From the NCBI RefSeq assembly GCF_003725695.1, contig NZ_RJSE01000007.1:124001-188000 (forward strand): a stretch of 64,000 nt of DNA, read 5' to 3'. How positions within the stretch are numbered: position 1 is the first letter of the stretch; the number at the start of each line of letters is the position of its first letter. Both the position numbers and the translations under genes were made by a program. This document shows, piece by piece, positions 45,227 to 54,024 of this stretch. The notes under the pieces were generated by a model. The model worked only from the letters and a program-made list of their open reading frames with translations, made no database searches and was not told the DNA's origin. Source of the stretch: Nocardioides marmoriginsengisoli. GTDB taxonomy: Bacteria; Actinomycetota; Actinomycetes; Propionibacteriales; Nocardioidaceae.

Positions 45227-45290
45227 GCGTCGAAAATTTCCTCTTCGTACTACTTCCGCTCGTCAGGTGACCTGTGTCATATTCCTCCCT

Positions 45291-45308
45291 ACCGAGCGAT
45301 CGCTCGGT
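45291..45308 (+). promoter_or_regulatory. TetR-type operator ahead of the monooxygenase
   Basis: Perfect 18-bp palindrome ACCGAGCGATCGCTCGGT, 41 bp before the preferred monooxygenase start. The CCGAGCG/CGCTCGG form is common among TetR-family sites. The only TetR-type domain in this island is fused to the acyl-CoA synthetase at 50552-53155. Confidence 0.72.
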
Positions 45309-45348: not shown

Positions 45349-47118
45349 GTGAGGGTTGGCACCGATTCGTCCCCCGTCGAGGTGAAGGCGGCTTTCCAGG
45401 GCTGGCTCACGGAGTTCGCGGGGACCCTGGAATCGGCCGACACGGCCGGCACCGTCGGCTTGCTCGACGCGGACTGCTGGTGGCGGGACCTCCTGGCGCT
45501 CAGCTGGGACCTGGGCACCTTCCACGGCACCGACAAGGTGGCCGGCCTGCTCGACGAGAACCTGAAATCGGCGGCCGTCTCCGACGTGCAGCTGATCACC
45601 GACTTCGGCCCCCGGTTCGTCGCCGAGGAGGGCGGCAGCGGTTCGATCGAGGGCTTCTTCACCTTCCAGACCGCCGGCGCCTGGTGCCGGGGCGTCGCTC
45701 GCATCCGGGAAGGCGCGGACGGCTGGCGCGCCTGGACCGTGATGACCGGCGCCGAGGACCTCAAGGGCCACGAGCGCGCCCTCGGCAGCCGCCGTCCCAC
45801 CGGCCCGCGCCACGAGGTCGGTGCCACCACGCAGCGCAACTGGAAGGACCAGCGCGACGCGGCGCAGGCCTACGCCGACCGGGAGCCCGAGGTGGTCATC
45901 CTCGGAGCCGGCCAGGGCGGCCTCGCGCTCGCGGCGAACCTCCGGCTGATGGGCGTCGACGCGCTGATCCTGGAGAAGAGCGGCCGGATCGGCGACGGCT
46001 GGCGCAGCCGCTACCACTCGCTGGTGCTGCACGACCCCGTCTGGGCCGACCACCTGCCCTACCTCCCGTTCCCGCAGTCGTGGCCGATCTACTCGGCGAA
46101 GGACAAGATCGCCGACTGGTTCGAGTTCTACGCCCAGGCGATGGAGCTCAACGTCTGGTGCTCGGCGGAGATGACCGACGCGGCGTACGACGAAGCGGCC
46201 GGCACCTGGACGGTCAAGGTCCGGACCGCCGACGGCGAGCGCACCCTCAAGCCGCGTGACGTCGTCCTCGCCACCGGTGCGGCCGGTGAGCCCAACGTCC
46301 CCGACTTCCCGGGCCGCGACTCCTTCGCCGGCACCGTCTACCACTCGAGCAAGCACGGCGCGGGCGGCAGCTGGGCCGGCAAGAAGGCGATCGTCGTCGG
46401 CGCGTGCAACAGCGGTCACGACATCGCGCAGGACCTCCACGAGGCCGGTGCCCAGGTCACCCTGGTGCAGCGCTCCTCGACGCACATCATCAGCCAGCTG
46501 CACGGCATCCCGGCGATCTTCGGTGCCAACTTCACCGAGTCGGGCCCGCCGACCGAGTACTCCGACCTGCTGGCGAGCGCCTTCCCGTGGCCGCTGGTGC
46601 TGGAGGCCGCGAAGGACGGGGTCAAGCAGACGGCCGAGAAGGACGCCGAGCTGCTGAGCTCGCTGGAAGCGGTCGGCTTCAAGCTCAACGACGGCCCCGA
46701 CGGCACCGGCCTGATGGGCTACGCCCTCGCCAAGGGCGGCGGCTACTACATCGACGTCGGCGCCTCCGGCCTGATCGCGGACGGCAAGATCGGGCTCGCC
46801 CAGGGCTCCGGCCTCGCCGAGTTCACGCCGTCGGGGATCAAGCTGGCCGACGGCCGCGAGCTGGACGCCGACCTCGTCGTCCTGGCGACCGGCTACTCCA
46901 ACATGCGCGAGACGGCGCGCCGGCTCTTCGGCGACCAGGTCGCGGACCGGTGCCCGCTGGTGCTGGGCATCGGGGAGGACGGCGAGATCGGCGGGCTCTA
47001 CCGCCGTACCGGGCAGCGCGGCTTCTGGTTCATGGGCGGACCGCTGGCCTGGGTGCGGATCTACTCCAAGCACCTCGCGCTGCAGATCACCGCGGACCTC
47101 CGCGGAGTACGTCCCTGA
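45349..47118 (+). CDS. SnoaL-like domain fused to flavin-containing monooxygenase
   Basis: A 589-aa flavoprotein. Residues 1-150 form an NTF2/SnoaL-like domain (GWLTEFAGTLESADTAGTVG, GSGSIEGFFTFQTAGAWCRG). The class-B monooxygenase follows: FAD site VVILGAGQGGLALAANLRLM near residue 181, FMO fingerprint FAGTVYHSSKH near 325, NADPH site IVVGACNSGHDIAQDL near 347 and the ATGYSN motif near the end. Such enzymes oxygenate ketones (Baeyer-Villiger) or soft nucleophiles. The GTG at 45349 is seven bases from AAGGAGG; an ATG at 45343 would be too close to it. First gene of the transport/catabolic island, preceded by a TetR-type palindrome. Confidence 0.87.
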   Translation: MRVGTDSSPVEVKAAFQGWLTEFAGTLESADTAGTVGLLDADCWWRDLLALSWDLGTFHGTDKVAGLLDENLKSAAVSDVQLITDFGPRFVAEEGGSGSIEGFFTFQTAGAWCRGVARIREGADGWRAWTVMTGAEDLKGHERALGSRRPTGPRHEVGATTQRNWKDQRDAAQAYADREPEVVILGAGQGGLALAANLRLMGVDALILEKSGRIGDGWRSRYHSLVLHDPVWADHLPYLPFPQSWPIYSAKDKIADWFEFYAQAMELNVWCSAEMTDAAYDEAAGTWTVKVRTADGERTLKPRDVVLATGAAGEPNVPDFPGRDSFAGTVYHSSKHGAGGSWAGKKAIVVGACNSGHDIAQDLHEAGAQVTLVQRSSTHIISQLHGIPAIFGANFTESGPPTEYSDLLASAFPWPLVLEAAKDGVKQTAEKDAELLSSLEAVGFKLNDGPDGTGLMGYALAKGGGYYIDVGASGLIADGKIGLAQGSGLAEFTPSGIKLADGRELDADLVVLATGYSNMRETARRLFGDQVADRCPLVLGIGEDGEIGGLYRRTGQRGFWFMGGPLAWVRIYSKHLALQITADLRGVRP

Positions 47119-47284
47119 CGTCCGGCGTCAGCGGATCCCATGAGTCGGCTCGGGGGCTCTGGGTGAGAACGACGCGGCGGAGGGAGGAGACCTCCACCCG
47201 CCCCGTCACCTGATGAGCGGCTGCGAACAGCGCTCATGAAGAACCCTGCCACCCGGCCGGGTGCGTCCCTCGAAGGAGAAGAAG

Positions 47285-48436
47285 ATGCAAGGCAGTAGAA
47301 ATGCATGGCTGAGGCCCGGCCTTGTCGCGATCGTGGCGGGGCTCAGCCTGGTGCTGGCCGCCTGCGGTGGCGGCGACGGGGACTCCGATGGCGGCGGCTC
47401 GTCGTCCGGCAAGAAGCTCGTCTACTTCATGGCCCCCAACACCACTCCGACCCGCTACATCGAGCAGGACGGCCCGGACTTCGAGAAGGCCCTCGAGGCG
47501 CTCGACCCCGATATCGAGGTGAAGTTCGTCAACGGCGGCGGCGACTCGGCCACCCAGCTGTCGCAGGCGAACTCGGCGATCTCGGCCGGAGCGAAGGCCC
47601 TGGTCGTGGTGGCGGCCGACCCGAACACCAGTGCCGGTCTGCTGCAGGCCGCCGCGGCCGCGAAGGTCCCCGTGATCGGCTACGAGAACCCGCCGCTCAA
47701 CGGACCGATGTACGCCCAGGTGATCTTCGACCCGTACAAGGTCGGCGTCCAGCAAGGCGAGTACTTCAAGAGCCAGGTCGAGGCCGGTGCTTTCGGCGAC
47801 GGTCCGATCGACCTCGCCCGCCAGTACGGCAACAAGGGCGACGTCTACACGACCGACATGCTCAAGGGCCAGAACGAGGTGCTGCAGCCGCTGATCGACG
47901 ACGGCACCCTGAAGGTGGTCTGCGAGGACTACATCAAGGACTGGGCCCCCGACAACGCCCAGAAGGCTGCCGAGCAGTGCCTGACCAAGACCCAGAACAA
48001 GGTCGACGTCTTCCTCGGCTTCTACGACGGCAACGCCGCGGGCATCATCGCCGCGCTCAAGGGCAAGGACGTCAAGATCCCCGTGTACGGCGGCCAGAAC
48101 CCGGAGCTGACCGGCATGCAGTACATGCTGACCGGCGACCAGCAGGACGCCGTCCTGAAGCCGTTCTCGGTCGAGGCCGAGGCGGCCGCCAAGATCGCCC
48201 TCGCGGCCATCAACGGCGAGGACCCGCCGTCCGACCTGGTGCAGGACTCGGTCAACAACGGGACGAACGACATCCCGACCGCCAAGCTCGACACCACCCT
48301 GATCCACCTCGAGGAGGGCAAGGACCCCGGAGAGATCGTCCAGCAGGCCGTCGACCTCGGGATCTTCACCTGGAAGCAGATCTGCGACGGCGGTCCTGCC
48401 GCTGACACGCCGACCTGCAAGGCCAAGGTCGGCTGA
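47285..48436 (+). CDS. ABC importer substrate-binding lipoprotein (sugar type)
   Basis: A 383-aa periplasmic-binding-protein-like lipoprotein: signal LRPGLVAIVAGLSLVLAAC with the lipobox LAAC (Cys near residue 26), a Gly/Ser/Asp linker, then a Peripla_BP_4 (ribose/xylose-type) fold with PDFEKALEALDPDIEVKFVN, ALVVVAADPNTSAGLLQAAA and PVYGGQNPELTGMQYMLTGD. AAGGAG precedes the ATG. It delivers an unknown ligand to the ABC ATPase and permease that follow. The co-located monooxygenase, CoA ligase and SDR suggest a ligand catabolised oxidatively, perhaps not a sugar. A 16-bp hairpin separates it from the ATPase gene. Confidence 0.92.
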   Translation: MQGSRNAWLRPGLVAIVAGLSLVLAACGGGDGDSDGGGSSSGKKLVYFMAPNTTPTRYIEQDGPDFEKALEALDPDIEVKFVNGGGDSATQLSQANSAISAGAKALVVVAADPNTSAGLLQAAAAAKVPVIGYENPPLNGPMYAQVIFDPYKVGVQQGEYFKSQVEAGAFGDGPIDLARQYGNKGDVYTTDMLKGQNEVLQPLIDDGTLKVVCEDYIKDWAPDNAQKAAEQCLTKTQNKVDVFLGFYDGNAAGIIAALKGKDVKIPVYGGQNPELTGMQYMLTGDQQDAVLKPFSVEAEAAAKIALAAINGEDPPSDLVQDSVNNGTNDIPTAKLDTTLIHLEEGKDPGEIVQQAVDLGIFTWKQICDGGPAADTPTCKAKVG

Positions 48437-48504: not shown

Positions 48505-49299
48505 ATGCCTGACGCTGCTACCACCGTGGAGCGCGGCGAGCTGCTGCTCGAGCTCAACCAGGTCTCGAAGTACTTCGGCGGAGTCCGTGCGCTCCACGAC
48601 GTCGACCTGGAGCTCTACCGAGGCGAGGTCGTCGCCCTGGTGGGCGACAACGGCGCGGGGAAGTCCACCCTCGTCAAGGTCATCTCCGGAGTGGAGCACC
48701 CCGACTCGGGCGCCCTCCGCGTGCGCGGTGAGGCGGTGCGGCTGGAGACGCCGCGGGCCGCCCAGAGCGCCGGGATCCACACCGTCTACCAGGACCTCTC
48801 GTTGTGCGACAACCTCGACGCGGTCCGCAACCTCTTCCTCGGCCAGGAGATCACCGGCGGGTTCCTGCGGGGCCGGCCGGTCAGCCGGCACCGGATGGAG
48901 CAGCAGGCCCGCGACGTGCTGGACAGCCTGGCCGTCAAGGTCCGCTCGCTCAACACGCCCGTCGGCGGGCTCTCCGGCGGCCAGCGGCAGGGCATCGCGA
49001 TCTGCCGCGCCCTGATCTCCGACCCGAGCATGGTGCTGCTCGACGAGCCGACGGCAGCGCTGGGCGTCTCCCAGCGCGCCGAGGTGCTCGACCTGATCCT
49101 GCGCCTGAAGTCCCAGAACCGCGGCGTCCTGGTGATCTCGCACGACCTCAAGGACGTCCAGGAGGTCGCCGACCGCGTCGTGGTCATGCGCCTGGGCAGC
49201 AAGGTCGCCGAGTTCGGTCGCGGCGAGTACACCTCGAGCGACCTGATCGCCGCCATCACCGGAGCCCACGAGGCCCCCCGATCCCCCGAGAGCAACTGA
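48505..49299 (+). CDS. ABC importer ATP-binding protein (sugar type)
   Basis: A 264-aa single-domain ATPase of the RbsA/XylG class: VALVGDNGAGKSTLVKVISG (Walker A), VYQDLSLCDNLDAVRNLFLG (Q-loop and the class-specific segment), GGLSGGQRQGIAICRALISD (signature), VLLDEPTAALGVSQRAEVLD (Walker B) and VLVISHDLKDV (switch His). Many relatives carry two fused ATPase halves; this one has only one, so it must act as a homodimer. GGAGGGGAA precedes the ATG. The stop overlaps the permease start (TGATG). Confidence 0.93.
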   Translation: MPDAATTVERGELLLELNQVSKYFGGVRALHDVDLELYRGEVVALVGDNGAGKSTLVKVISGVEHPDSGALRVRGEAVRLETPRAAQSAGIHTVYQDLSLCDNLDAVRNLFLGQEITGGFLRGRPVSRHRMEQQARDVLDSLAVKVRSLNTPVGGLSGGQRQGIAICRALISDPSMVLLDEPTAALGVSQRAEVLDLILRLKSQNRGVLVISHDLKDVQEVADRVVVMRLGSKVAEFGRGEYTSSDLIAAITGAHEAPRSPESN

Positions 49300-50507
49300 T
49301 GAGCACGCACAAGGCCCCGGCACCGACGACCGCGGGGGAGCAGAGCACGCCCTTGCTCTCGCGCCTGGTCGAGGGACTGAGCGGGCGCTACCGCAGCATC
49401 CCGGTGCTGTTCGTCCTCGGCCTGATCTGGCTGTACTTCTACTCCCGCAACTCGGCGTACCTCACCTCGACGAACATCACGAACCTCTCCCTCCAGATCG
49501 TCACCACGGCGATCCTGGCGCTGGGCATCGTGTTCGTGCTGCTCGTCGGCGAGATCGACCTCTCCTCCGCGCTGCTCTCCGGCGTCTGCGCCACCGTCAC
49601 CGCGCAGCTGGCGATCAAGAGCGACTGGCCGTTGTGGATGGCCATCCTCGGCGGTGTCGCCACCGGTCTGGTCTTCGTCCTGGCCGAGGTGCTGGCGATC
49701 ATCTTCGGCGTACCGTCGCTGATCGTCACGCTCGGCGGCATGGTGATCCTGCAGGGTCTCCTGCTGGTGGTGCTGCCGCCCGAGTTCGTGATCAACATCG
49801 GCGGCACCGACTTCGCCAAGATCTCCTCCACCTACATCCCGTCCGGCTGGGCGTTCGTCATCGCCGGCGTGGGCTGGCTGCTCTTCTGCGCGGCCCGCTT
49901 CCGCGCGCACCGGGAGCGCGGCGCGGCTGCGGACTCGTCAGCACTGGTCTCGGTCGGCGTCCCGGCCGTCCTCTGCGGGGTCGTGGTCTTCGGGGCGGTG
50001 GCGGTCCTCGGTGAGGGCCGCGGTCTGCCGCTGCCGGTGCTGATCCTGGTCGCGATGCTGCTGATCGCGTCGTACGCGACGAGCCGGACCCGCTACGGCA
50101 CCCACCTGTACGCCGTCGGCGGCAACCGCGAGGCCGCGCAGCGTGCCGGCATCCCGGTCTCCCGGATGGTCATCTACTCCTTCCTGGTGCTCGGCGCCTG
50201 CGCGGCCGTGGCCGGGATCATCGAGGCGTCCCGCCTGCTGGCGGTCTCCAACTCGTCGGGTGGCGGGCCGCTGATGCTGAACGCGATCGCCGCCGCCGTC
50301 GTCGGCGGGGCGAGCCTCTTCGGCGGCCGCGGCACGGTCTGGGCCGCCCTGCTGGGTGCCCTGGTGATCGGGTCGATCAACAACGGCGTCCAGCTCCTGG
50401 GTCTCTCGACCGAGGTGCAGAGCTTCGCGACGGGCGGTGTACTTATCCTTGCTGTTGCGATCGACGTCGTGATCACCCGAGGGTCGCTGCTGCCCAACCG
50501 CCGATGA
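49299..50507 (+). CDS. ABC importer permease (BPD_transp_2, sugar type)
   Basis: A 402-aa permease of the RbsC/XylH class with about ten hydrophobic helices. The signature region VLLVGEIDLSSALLSGVCAT matches the EIDLS motif of this family, and RTRYGTHLYAVGGNREAAQR followed by AGIPVSRM is the ATPase-contact loop. The last helices carry AAAVVGGASLFGGRGTVWAA. It starts at the ATPase stop (TGATG), and its own stop overlaps an ATG at 50504, linking it to the ligase-TetR gene downstream. With the binding protein and ATPase it makes a complete importer. Confidence 0.93.
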   Translation: MSTHKAPAPTTAGEQSTPLLSRLVEGLSGRYRSIPVLFVLGLIWLYFYSRNSAYLTSTNITNLSLQIVTTAILALGIVFVLLVGEIDLSSALLSGVCATVTAQLAIKSDWPLWMAILGGVATGLVFVLAEVLAIIFGVPSLIVTLGGMVILQGLLLVVLPPEFVINIGGTDFAKISSTYIPSGWAFVIAGVGWLLFCAARFRAHRERGAAADSSALVSVGVPAVLCGVVVFGAVAVLGEGRGLPLPVLILVAMLLIASYATSRTRYGTHLYAVGGNREAAQRAGIPVSRMVIYSFLVLGACAAVAGIIEASRLLAVSNSSGGGPLMLNAIAAAVVGGASLFGGRGTVWAALLGALVIGSINNGVQLLGLSTEVQSFATGGVLILAVAIDVVITRGSLLPNRR

Positions 50508-50551
50508 CCAGTGAACGTTCAGGTGTGCAACGCGAAAGGGGATGTGCAGAC

Positions 50552-53155
50552 GTGACAGTCGAGGCGGCGTGGCTGCCCACGGACGACCAGATCGATCGCT
50601 CCCGAGTGGTCGACTTCGCTCGGTGGCTCGGAGCGCAGGGAGTCGTCACGCTGGCCGACCCGCGGGACTACCGCGAGCTCCAGGCGTGGTCGGCGGCGGA
50701 GCCCGCGCTCTTCTGGGAGGCGGTGGCGACGTACTTCGGGGTCGACTTCGGGGTGAAGGCCACCGAGGTGCTCTCGTCGCGGGAGATGCCCGGGGCGCGC
50801 TGGTTCCACGGCGGCTCGCTGAACTTCGCCCGGGAGATGCTCAAGCACGGGGCCGCCGAGCGCGAGGCGATCATCCTGGTGCGCGACGACGGGCACCGTG
50901 AGTCGGTCACCTTCGGCCAGCTCCGCGAGCAGGTCGCCGCGGTCGCGGGTGCGCTCGCCGATCGGGGTGTCGGCGAGGGCGACCGGGTGGTCGCCTACCT
51001 GCCGAACTGCATCGAGGGCGTGGTCGCGTTCCTGGCGTCGGCGACCCTGGGAGCGGTCTGGTCGCAGACCGGCATGGACTACGCGCCGGCCGCGGCGATG
51101 GACCGCCTCGGCCAGCTCGACCCGACCGTCTTCATCACCGGCACCGGCTACCTGTTCAAGGGCGTCCAGCAGGACCGCCGCGACGCGGTCGCCGAGCTCC
51201 GGGTGTTGCTGCCGGTCGACGCCTTCGTCGTGTCGATCGAGACCGGCGGCGTCGCGCGCGACGACACCACGCCGTACGACGCCACCTGGGAGCAGCTGCA
51301 GCGGTTCAGCAAGCCGGTGAGCACCGAGGTCAACGTGCCCTTCGACCATCCGCTTTGGGTGCTGTTCACCTCGGGCACCACGGGTCGGCCCAAGGGCATC
51401 GTGCACGGGCACGGCGGCGCCCTGCTCGAGCAGCTCGTCTCGCCGGGATTCCACATGGACCTCGACGAGAGCGACGTCTTCTTCTGGTTCACCACGCCCA
51501 ACTGGATGATGTGGAACGCGCAGATCTGCGGGCTCCTGCACGGCGCCACCATCGTCCTGTTCGACGGCAGCCCGACCCACCCCGACACCGGTCTGCTCTG
51601 GCGGCTGGTGCAGGACCTGGGCGTCACGGTGTTCGGCACCAGCCCGGGCTACCTGCAGGCCAGCGCGCGGGACGGTCTCGAGCCGGGCCGCGACCTGGAC
51701 CTTTCGGCGCTCCAGCTGATCGGCGTCACCGGTTCGGTGCTGCCGGCCAGCAGCAACGAGTGGGTCCGTGAGCACGTGCGCGCCGACCTCCAGCTCGGCT
51801 CGATGAGCGGTGGTACCGACATCGTCGGCATCTTCGTGGCCAGCGCGCCGAACCTCCCGGTCTACGACGGCGAGCTCAGCGGTGCCGCGCTCGGCGTCGC
51901 CCTGGAGGTCTGGGACGAGCGCGGCAACCGGCTGCCCGACGGCGAGACCGGCGAGATGGTGATCACCCAGCCGATGCCGTCGATGCCGATCGCGTTCTGG
52001 GACGACCCGGAGGGCGAGCGCTACCGGGACGCGTACTTCGACGTCTTCCCGGGGGTCTGGCGGCACGGCGACTCGATCACGGTCACCGAGCGCGGGACCG
52101 TGCTGATCCACGGCCGCACCGACTCGGTGCTCAACCGCAACGGGGTCCGGCTCGGCAGCGCCGAGATCTACGAGGCCGTCGAGTCGCTGACCGAGGTGAG
52201 CGACAGCCTCGTCGTCGGCGTCGAGCTCCCCGAGGGCGGCTACTGGATGCCGTTGTTCGTGGTGGCCGACCCGGGGACCGACGAGGTGGCACTGCGCTCG
52301 AGCATCGTCGAGACCATCGCCGGCCGGACCTCGCGCCGGCACGTGCCGGACGAGATCATCGTCGCGCCGGCCCTCCCGCGCACCCGCACCGGCAAGCGGC
52401 TGGAGGTGCCGGTCAAGCGGATCCTCCAGGGAACCGCCGCCCGTCGGGTCACCAGCATGGGAGCGGTCGACGACGTCGAGGCGCTGAAGTGGCTGATCGA
52501 CTTCGCCCGGAAGCGAAACGGGGACGCCGCGGTCAGCACCACCGTGCTGCCCACCGACACCTACGAGGACTGGCGGATCTACCACGAGCAGAACCTGCCG
52601 CGGGTACTGAGCGCCGCCCTCGACGTGTTCGCGGAGAAGGGCTACCACGGGACGACCACGCGTCAGCTCGCCGACCGGTCCGGGCTCTCGGTGCCCGGCA
52701 TCTACCACCACTACAAGTCCAAGCAGGACATCCTCTTCGACCTGATGATGGTGATCGTCGACGAGCTGATCGAGCGGAGCCGCTTCGCGGTGGCCGACGC
52801 CGACGCCGAGCCGCGGGCGCAGTTCGACGCGCTCGTCTCGAGCATGCTGCTGTTCCACGTCTACCGGCGCAAGGGCGCGATCGTCTCCACCAGCGAGCTC
52901 CGGAGCCTCGAGTCCGTCAACCGGCGGAAGTACCTCGACCGCCGTGACGAGCTGCAGGCGATGCTGGACAAGGTGATCGACGACGGCGTCGCCACCGGGG
53001 TGTTCCACACGCCGTACCCGGGGGACGCGGCGCGGGCGATCACGTCGATGTGCGCCGGGGTCGCGACCTGGTACCGGCCGGAGGCGCCGCTCAGCTTCGA
53101 CCCGCTGCTCGACCGCTACCTCTCGATCGCCGAGGCGATCGTCGGGGTCGGCTGA
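50552..53155 (+). CDS. Acetoacetyl-CoA-synthetase-like ligase fused to a TetR regulator
   Basis: One continuous 867-aa frame. Residues 1-650 are an acyl-CoA synthetase of the acetoacetate-CoA ligase type: N-terminal VTVEAAWLPTDDQIDRSRVV, ATP loop FTSGTTGRPKGIVHGHGG near 272, the mid-domain HGRTDSVLNRNGVRLGSAEI and the acylation lysine in PRTRTGKRLEVPVKRIL. After a 40-residue linker a full TetR domain follows: LPRVLSAALDVFAEKGYHGT, TTRQLADRSGLSVPGIYHHY, KSKQDILFDLMM, then a helical ligand domain to the end. GTG 50552 has GAAAGGGGA upstream; ATG 50504, overlapping the permease stop, is the alternative. The enzyme may sense its own substrate and repress the island. Confidence 0.88.
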   Translation: MTVEAAWLPTDDQIDRSRVVDFARWLGAQGVVTLADPRDYRELQAWSAAEPALFWEAVATYFGVDFGVKATEVLSSREMPGARWFHGGSLNFAREMLKHGAAEREAIILVRDDGHRESVTFGQLREQVAAVAGALADRGVGEGDRVVAYLPNCIEGVVAFLASATLGAVWSQTGMDYAPAAAMDRLGQLDPTVFITGTGYLFKGVQQDRRDAVAELRVLLPVDAFVVSIETGGVARDDTTPYDATWEQLQRFSKPVSTEVNVPFDHPLWVLFTSGTTGRPKGIVHGHGGALLEQLVSPGFHMDLDESDVFFWFTTPNWMMWNAQICGLLHGATIVLFDGSPTHPDTGLLWRLVQDLGVTVFGTSPGYLQASARDGLEPGRDLDLSALQLIGVTGSVLPASSNEWVREHVRADLQLGSMSGGTDIVGIFVASAPNLPVYDGELSGAALGVALEVWDERGNRLPDGETGEMVITQPMPSMPIAFWDDPEGERYRDAYFDVFPGVWRHGDSITVTERGTVLIHGRTDSVLNRNGVRLGSAEIYEAVESLTEVSDSLVVGVELPEGGYWMPLFVVADPGTDEVALRSSIVETIAGRTSRRHVPDEIIVAPALPRTRTGKRLEVPVKRILQGTAARRVTSMGAVDDVEALKWLIDFARKRNGDAAVSTTVLPTDTYEDWRIYHEQNLPRVLSAALDVFAEKGYHGTTTRQLADRSGLSVPGIYHHYKSKQDILFDLMMVIVDELIERSRFAVADADAEPRAQFDALVSSMLLFHVYRRKGAIVSTSELRSLESVNRRKYLDRRDELQAMLDKVIDDGVATGVFHTPYPGDAARAITSMCAGVATWYRPEAPLSFDPLLDRYLSIAEAIVGVG

Positions 53156-53190
53156 GCCGGGCACCGCAGATCGCACTCGAGGAGGAGAGC

Positions 53191-54024
53191 ATGGGACGGG
53201 TAGAGGACAAGGTCGCGCTCATCACCGGAGCCGGCCGCGGCCAGGGACGCAGCCACGCCGTACGGCTGGCCGAGGAGGGCGCGTCGATCATCGCGTTCGA
53301 CATCTGCGCGCCGGTGGCGTCGGTGAGCTACGAGATGTCGACGCGCGAGGACCTCGAGGAGACCTGCGAGCTGGTGCGGGCCGCCGGCGGTCAGGCGTAC
53401 GCCGCGCAGGTGGACGTCCGGGACTTCGACGTCCTCAGCCGTGAGCTCGCGGCCGGGATCGATGCCCTCGGCGGGCTCGACGTCGTGGTGGCCAACGCCG
53501 GCATCGCCAGCTACGCCCCGGGTCACGAGATCTCCGAGGCCGCCTGGCAGGAGATGATCGACATCAACCTCACGGGCACCTGGCACACCATCAAGGCCGC
53601 GGTCCCGCACCTGGTCGCCGCGGGTCGCGGCGGGTCGATCGTGCTGACCAGCTCTGCGGCGGGCCTGCAGGGCACCCCGAACCTGGCCCACTACGTGGCA
53701 GCCAAGCACGGGGTCACCGGCCTGGTGCGCACCTTCGCCAACGAGCTGGCACCGCACTGGATCCGGGTCAACAGCGTGAACCCGACCCAGGTGGACACAC
53801 CGATGATCATGAACGACGAGATCTTCCGGCTGTTCCGGCCCGACCTGGAGTCCCCGGGCCGCGACGACATCGTCGACGTCTCGATCGCGACCAACGCGCT
53901 GCCGGTTCCCTGGGTGGAGGCGAGCGACGTCTCCAACGCCGTCCTCTTCCTCGCCTCCGACGAGGCCCGCTACATCACCGGCGTGACGCTGCCGGTCGAC
54001 GCCGGCATCCTCGCCAAGGTGTAG
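53191..54024 (+). CDS. Mycofactocin-coupled-type SDR oxidoreductase
   Basis: A 277-aa short-chain dehydrogenase. The opening MGRVEDKVALITGAGRGQGR and SHAVRLAEEGASIIAFDICA are the hallmark of the mycofactocin-coupled SDR subfamily, with the family insert after DICAPV. Other motifs are VVVANAGIAS, VLTSSAAGLQG and the catalytic YVAAK. Known members bind NAD tightly and hand electrons to mycofactocin, typically oxidising alcohols. GAGGAGGAG precedes the ATG. It lies 35 bp after the ligase-TetR gene in the same direction and fits as the alcohol-oxidising step of this island. No mycofactocin biosynthesis gene is in the window. Confidence 0.92.
   Translation: MGRVEDKVALITGAGRGQGRSHAVRLAEEGASIIAFDICAPVASVSYEMSTREDLEETCELVRAAGGQAYAAQVDVRDFDVLSRELAAGIDALGGLDVVVANAGIASYAPGHEISEAAWQEMIDINLTGTWHTIKAAVPHLVAAGRGGSIVLTSSAAGLQGTPNLAHYVAAKHGVTGLVRTFANELAPHWIRVNSVNPTQVDTPMIMNDEIFRLFRPDLESPGRDDIVDVSIATNALPVPWVEASDVSNAVLFLASDEARYITGVTLPVDAGILAKV

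Follow-up and report, generated by a model that had tools for sequence, protein, structure and literature searches.

BirA and PutA are model cases of direct metabolic control by enzyme-repressors. BirA, biotin protein ligase and bio repressor in one polypeptide, is described as controlling the pathway that it serves, and PutA, proline dehydrogenase and put repressor, as a catabolic enzyme that represses its own operon (PMC6978683). In a further system the two functions lie in two proteins: the TetR repressor KstR2, which controls a set of ring-degradation genes, is reported to be released by HIP-CoA, the product of a separate acyl-CoA synthetase and itself a coenzyme A (CoA) thioester, so that a TetR reads what a ligase of the same pathway makes (PMC6678751). 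Here we describe a stretch of 64,000 nucleotides from Nocardioides marmoriginsengisoli (the window; contig NZ_RJSE01000007.1, positions 124,001 to 188,000 of the forward strand), in which a single open frame at 50504-53155 on the plus strand encodes an 883-residue protein, an acetoacetate--CoA-ligase-type enzyme followed by a TetR domain. The frame is uninterrupted, both halves are complete with their catalytic and DNA-binding motifs, and the surrounding operon is conserved with its single operator. We put at roughly 70% the likelihood that the protein is a catabolic acyl-CoA ligase carrying its own repressor, which would make its operon self-regulating through one palindrome.

The likeness to the KstR2 system lies in the sequence kinship of the TetR half with KstR2 (PDB entry 4w97); that system differs in consisting of two proteins and in its ligase, FadD3. 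BirA is unlike the fusion in having unrelated folds, an N-terminal winged helix, a biosynthetic role and an adenylate as corepressor, and PutA in having another DNA-binding domain and a redox-driven membrane switch. Among the papers that searches of 5.39 million open papers listed, none concerns a TetR-CoA ligase fusion by its title or the beginning of its abstract, subscription papers and database architecture pages being outside that scope; sequence-database records that show both domains together may well exist.

A ligase and a repressor in one frame

The ligase half (50504-52519, to about residue 672) matches the NCBIfam model NF002937 for acetoacetate--CoA ligase at 795.8 bits (cut-off 639), residues 20-671 corresponding to model positions 5-655 of 657, and TIGR01217 at 686.2 bits (cut-off 520.9), and is by both models a full-length member. 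All Pfam domains of the protein exceed their gathering scores: AMP-binding (residues 120-490), AMP-binding_C (557-631), TetR_N (702-745; 57.6 bits, gathering score 24) and TetR_C_24 (768-876; 83.9 bits, gathering score 26.4), the last two placing the DNA-binding helices and the remainder of the C-terminal half (52601-53152) in the TetR family. A sequence-only reading of this DNA had seen a ligase with intact ATP loop and lysine fused in one frame to a complete TetR domain, and the domain matches bear it out; the P-loop reads SGTTGRPK and the catalytic lysine motif TGKRLEVP, found as TGK(R/K)LEVP in all 22 operon loci, window counted in. By its predicted domains the polypeptide joins an enzyme to a DNA-binding domain, in the manner of BirA and PutA.

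That reading had placed the gene at 50552-53155. The end stands and the start does not, as the frame opens at an ATG at 50504 that overlaps the stop of the permease gene (ATGA), and position 50552 corresponds to a GTG in the same frame, at residue 17. Five relatives compared over residues 1-19 differ freely there, and their codon differences change the amino acid more often than they are silent, so that the true start may be either the ATG at 50504 or the GTG at 50552. An antisense frame of 885 residues (50519-53176, minus strand) spans nearly the whole fusion gene; we do not take it for a gene, because the sense frame has 95% G+C at third positions and such frames are expected.

An AlphaFold2 model of the fusion (34 rows; mean predicted local distance difference test score, pLDDT, 76.2; predicted template modelling score, pTM, 0.65) closes the ligase with a helix at residues 658-672 and places nine helices between residues 700 and 880 of the TetR half. 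The best fold match of the model is the acetoacetyl-CoA synthetase of Streptomyces lividans, 4wd1 (TMt 0.89), and the 50 fold matches listed are of the ligase class throughout. The same entry is the top PDB sequence match (641 bits, residues 21-671); it differs in being a 658-residue chain without a TetR domain, and in reading STGWMMWN where the fusion reads TPNWMMWN. For the TetR half the closest PDB relative with a named function is KstR2 (4w97, E 1.9e-17); 3dcf, 3vpr and 3him score higher and carry general names only.

Between the halves lies a linker of about residues 673-699 (52520-52600, plus strand). The pLDDT falls below 50 at residues 674-688 and 691-695, as it is also low inside the ligase half (289-299, 506-518 and 537-551, for example), and the linker is probably flexible in the model. 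Is it translated? Among ten Nocardioides-type sequences the variable sites of residues 672-699 fall 14, 8 and 21 times at codon positions 1, 2 and 3, a third-position share of 21 in 43 (p 0.025 against one third, the sites not being independent), and linker length differs by one whole codon among homologues with the frame kept. This pattern favours a linker that is translated, though under loose constraint, and some internal starts may still occur. Variable sites fall at third positions in 403 of 585 cases in the ligase half and in 112 of 158 in the TetR half (29, 17 and 112), and since they are mostly third positions there, the TetR half is under purifying selection.

How widespread is the fusion? 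A contig scan for exact peptides of the window's own fusion protein kept 80 of 200 relatives, of which 21 (L018-L036, L070, L093) have both ligase and TetR matches; L037, L041, L047 and L049 matched beyond the ligase without a TetR match at 1e-8 and are not counted as pairs. The two halves are fused in one frame in six of the 21 (L018-L021, L023, L024) and split in 15, where the ligase stops and TetR is an adjacent gene of its own, its product 60-74% identical to the fused TetR half. Of 341 genomes of the family searched, 15 gave a match at E 1e-240 or lower, and in 12 of these the fusion runs without a stop: the window's own, nine of the genus coded g18 and two of g2. The frame is thus open in 11 genomes besides the window's, at 59-89% identity; several of these are, by their linker sequences, the same organisms as loci of the contig scan, and the total is counted as 12 fused genomes, which belong to a group of soil actinobacteria. 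It had been held that homologues consistently encoded as separate genes would refute the fusion; separate genes there are in most of the 21 loci, and fused ones in the other six and in four-fifths of the strong family matches.

Within the window's genus the fusion is present in one of 24 genomes, the window's own. It is found in six of 391 genomes of an order sample and one of 394 of a class sample, both overlapping the family search, and in neither sample outside the window's family. Plasmid carriage was considered and rejected: 103 plasmid records gave a match at 1e-100, but in none of them is 80% of the fusion covered at a single place. One further genome, G036 (locus L112), has a ligase of the same subfamily and no TetR at the ligase locus; the other operon proteins were not found in that 4,950-base locus at 1e-5. 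The ligases of the Paractinoplanes operons (L035, L036, L093) read longer, at 700, 696 and 793 residues, and the L093 match is interrupted between 8705 and 9153.

The candidate operator at the operon head

The perfect palindrome ACCGAGCGATCGCTCGGT (45291-45308) ahead of the first gene, seen already in the sequence-only reading, is the only exact ACCGAGCGNNCGCTCGGT match in the organism's 4.46 Mb genome, and the GTG (45349) of the monooxygenase gene lies 40 bases after it. The genome holds five further ACCGAGCGNNCGCTCGGT sites with two mismatches, against three sites for a reversed control pattern. Among relatives the palindrome is well conserved: upstream of the monooxygenase gene all 18 readable heads carry ACCGAGCGNNCGCTCGGT with no more than one mismatch (exact copies in eight; in ten a single mismatch, at the final base). 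None of 75 control loci does; some of these are shorter, and their best matches have two mismatches in 2 loci, three in 16, four in 47 and five in 10. The count of heads leaves out L019, L022 and L030, whose heads are not, or not fully, on the contig. An extra site stands between the TetR and dehydrogenase genes in two loci, as a second exact copy in L025 and a one-mismatch copy in L022.

Each of the 12 fused genomes has one exact ACCGAGCGNNCGCTCGGT; in 11 it lies 5.1-5.25 kb upstream of the fusion gene, and in G126 it is on a different contig. A further one-mismatch site is present only in G130 and G296, and since this is no more than the control pattern gives, the fused protein seems to have one operon as its whole regulon. 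Of the three non-fused genomes included in the search, G252 and G278 contain the exact site; G036, with its ligase locus lacking TetR, has no ACCGAGCGNNCGCTCGGT site at one mismatch or fewer in its whole genome. By this phylogenetic footprint, the fused TetR would have a palindromic operator near its target promoter, as a TetR repressor should.

Just upstream of the palindrome a promoter-like stretch was read by eye at 45269-45283 (plus strand), GACCTGTGTCATATT in the window and GACGTGTGNNACACT in relatives. Among 12 other heads GACGTGTGNNACACT is exact in five (L018, L020, L021, L023, L025), has one mismatch in two (L026, L027), and is diverged or unrecognisable in five; the window has three mismatches. 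A sigma-70 consensus promoter was looked for at the operon head and rejected, no match being found.

Which TetR would own this operator? In 11 of the 12 fused genomes no other TetR exceeds 42% identity to the fused half, and three (G116, G033, G070) have no other TetR at E 1e-25. Given the conserved operator and the absence of another close TetR in these 11, the fused protein most likely represses its own operon through the palindrome.

Proposed working of the fused protein

DNA binding, dimerisation, repression and induction by a CoA thioester may be proposed from the sequence as follows. The fused protein would dimerise through its TetR half and bind the one palindrome at the operon head, so that importer, monooxygenase, ligase-repressor and dehydrogenase would all be silenced at once. 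Protein from leaky expression would convert an acid, imported or made by the monooxygenase, to its CoA thioester, and this thioester, or a later one of the pathway, would enter the TetR_C_24 pocket and cause the repressor to leave the operator. More ligase-repressor would then be made, and the loop would close again once the thioester had been consumed. Because the TetR half resembles KstR2, which responds to such a compound, we think it probable, with some reserve, that the inducer is a CoA thioester from the ligase half or from later enzymes. The fusion fixes catalyst and sensor at 1:1, and the ligase would have to become part of a repressor dimer.

Several points weigh against this account, which is built from sequence and predicted structure. 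CoA contacts are described as not strictly conserved among TetR repressors (PMC11667970), so that a CoA inducer is not readable from sequence. The linker statistics are weak, with 49% of variable sites at third positions against 69-71% in the two halves, and the reversed control pattern, too, yields chance sites with at most one mismatch, six of them in five of 15 genomes. A stand-alone TetR encoded in the organism's own genome has 52% identity to the fused half and a two-mismatch palindrome beside it, and this protein could share the site. Finally, GTG at residue 681 and ATG at residue 652 each occur in 6 of the 12 fused genes, and in some species a free TetR might arise by internal initiation.

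The last of these points leads to an alternative in which the fusion exists in the gene only: the TetR half would also, or mainly, be made free, by the internal start or by cleavage of the linker, and would work as in the split systems. The linker, of low model confidence and the least conserved inner part of the protein, would suit such a process, as would the start codons in part of the fused genes and the separate TetR gene of the 15 split relatives. Against it, no column of in-frame start codons (ATG, GTG or TTG) in the stretch from residue 632 to residue 702 is common to all 12 fused genes; the best column, residue 635, is inside the ligase and is found in nine, and residue 681, the column closest to the split-TetR starts, is GTC in four of the first seven genes compared. 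The reading frame, moreover, survives the one-codon change in linker length. We consider a free repressor as the working form unlikely.

A second alternative concerns the signal. The repressor half might sense the free acid, the acyl-adenylate or the catalytic state of the ligase, and not the CoA thioester. The C-terminal part of the ligase rotates during catalysis in this enzyme class, and BirA responds to its adenylate. In the model the TetR half appears tethered right behind that C-terminal part, and BirA is a described precedent for a ligase that is also a repressor (PMC6978683; PMC4016012). The split relatives, however, keep the same TetR untethered, which argues that sensing originally needed no tether, and KstR2, the closest named kin among the PDB matches, senses a CoA thioester; such a signal is in our judgement improbable. 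A tentative and similarly doubtful form of this idea has catalysis itself as the signal: the adenylate- or thioester-forming conformation, or a product handed to the tethered pocket, would free the operator without a diffusing inducer. If true, a metabolic enzyme would report its own turnover to its own promoter.

Might the TetR half instead be a relic behind a working ligase, with the operator served by another TetR? The candidate would be the 52% paralogue in the organism's own genome (C2:1094340-1094921), whose palindrome-like site (1094973-1094990) lies upstream of genes for an acyl-CoA dehydrogenase and an APH kinase. That this site is a second operator is suggested by its place only, since two-mismatch sites are near chance, and cross-talk between the two proteins in this genome is possible. 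A relic is nevertheless very unlikely, given the distant next-best TetR of 11 fused genomes, the exact operator kept in all 12 and the purifying selection indicated by the third-position sites. The paralogous cluster as a whole (L098:8328-11207; G000:C2:1094328-1097207) comprises TetR, palindrome, acyl-CoA dehydrogenase and APH kinase. An assembly or sequencing error or a frameshift joining two genes, a source that the 15 loci with two separate genes might bring to mind and that had been named as a possible refutation, can be dismissed, as the same fusion is found in 12 genomes, three of them single-contig (G116, G159, G288).

Neighbouring genes, substrate and origin

The fusion gene stands in an island, as the sequence-only reading had it; the genes beside it, for a monooxygenase, an importer and a dehydrogenase, are likewise on the plus strand. 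The first gene (45349-47118, GTG start) encodes a flavin monooxygenase of 589 residues with Pfam matches to FMO-like and Pyr_redox_3 and a PDB match to 8acs, a flavin adenine dinucleotide-dependent oxidoreductase, at 464 bits; about 180 N-terminal residues are without a Pfam match, and 8acs matches nearly the full length. It is 67-88% identical to the monooxygenases of the operon loci that hold one, and at 1e-20 this monooxygenase was found in none of the 75 other loci searched (the window's own L001 aside), many of which have short flanks. There follow the genes of an ATP-binding cassette importer: a sugar-type substrate-binding protein (47261-48436; Pfam Peripla_BP_4, NCBIfam XylF/ChvE-like below cut-off), an ATPase of 264 residues (48505-49299), present in all 21 operon loci, and a permease of 402 residues (49299-50507; Pfam BPD_transp_2), whose stop overlaps the fusion-gene ATG. 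The order monooxygenase, substrate-binding protein, ATPase, permease, ligase, TetR is kept in all 21 loci, as far as the contigs extend.

The last gene of the island (53191-54024) encodes a mycofactocin-coupled short-chain dehydrogenase (TIGR03971, 403.6 bits, cut-off 300). A relative of 90-91% identity follows the fusion gene in L018-L021, and at the same place in L035, L036 and L093 the match is to a distant dehydrogenase (28-30%).

What acid does the ligase activate? All 22 operon loci, the window's among them, have PN ahead of WMMWN, against 1 of the 58 other loci read, the exception being L002, a paralogue in the organism's own genome; 17 of the 97 loci did not enter this count, and L112, outside the 97, also has PN. 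In related enzymes the WMMWN stretch adjoins the acyl pocket. Acetoacetate is thus not assured as the substrate, and PN may point to another acid.

Every one of the 15 split loci carries an APH-type kinase, and 12 of them an acyl-CoA dehydrogenase, placed either behind TetR or so as to face the monooxygenase. Dehydrogenase and kinase are downstream of TetR in L022, L025 and L026 and face the monooxygenase in L028, L029, L031, L032, L034-L036, L070 and L093; these Asp-type dehydrogenases and APH kinases stand beside copies of the same operator. All 13 dehydrogenases checked, from 12 loci plus the paralogue of the organism itself, have YDG at the catalytic place, and all 16 kinases checked have the motif HGD-R-DN. 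An LvaA-like kinase together with a dehydrogenase with a predicted catalytic Asp is described as the route of 4-hydroxy acids, with LvaA/LvaC and ACAD10/ACAD11 (4-hydroxyacyl-CoA kinase and dehydrogenase) as examples (PMC12440821), and the pair of the split operons bears a signature like that of 4-hydroxy-acid catabolism. LvaE is reported to group with medium-chain CoA synthetases (PMC6692424).

The fused operons differ in this, as no close relative of the pair stands beside the fused genes: kinase and Asp-type dehydrogenase are absent from the operon of the window and of all six fused loci, and a levulinate (Lva)-type pathway was rejected for the fused operon on that ground. The Nocardioides-type fused operons have the mycofactocin-type dehydrogenase in place of the pair, and the two Aeromicrobium ones have neither. 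In L018 a distant kinase and dehydrogenase pair (35% and 39%) lies on the opposite strand, about 6 kb further downstream. The organism's genome has a comparable pair elsewhere, accompanied by a TetR of its own, and four of the 12 fused genomes have an Asp-type dehydrogenase at E 1e-120.

What evolutionary path led to the fusion? In 11 of the 15 split loci the stop codon of the ligase gene overlaps a start codon in frame with TetR (nine ATGA, two GTGA), as read from the junction DNA, the true TetR start of these loci being uncertain. Because of this overlap, it is most likely that the fusion goes back to two translationally coupled genes whose products already served as ligase and cognate repressor, and the overlap suggests that coupled dosage was favoured before the fusion. 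In the ligase tree (L034 dropped) and the concatenated tree (L034 left out) each of the two fused groups falls in a starred clade of its own, with unstarred forks between the two. The concatenated tree sets the Nocardioides-type and Aeromicrobium fusions apart, and a single clade is not rejected (p-AU 0.375, approximately unbiased test). The window's fusion falls inside the g18 rows at a starred fork, and g18 as one clade is likewise not rejected (p-AU 0.196). The window's genus, with its single fused genome placed among the g18 rows, may have gained the gene horizontally.

The fusion would be the same kind of device as BirA and PutA, as these are described in PMC6978683, built from other parts: a repressor of the widespread TetR family joined to an AMP-forming CoA ligase, from an enzyme class that is likewise widespread. 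A TetR is thereby given a defined candidate operator and a short list of candidate inducers, and as split relatives live on with the same operator, a comparison of fused and split forms can test what would be gained from the tether.

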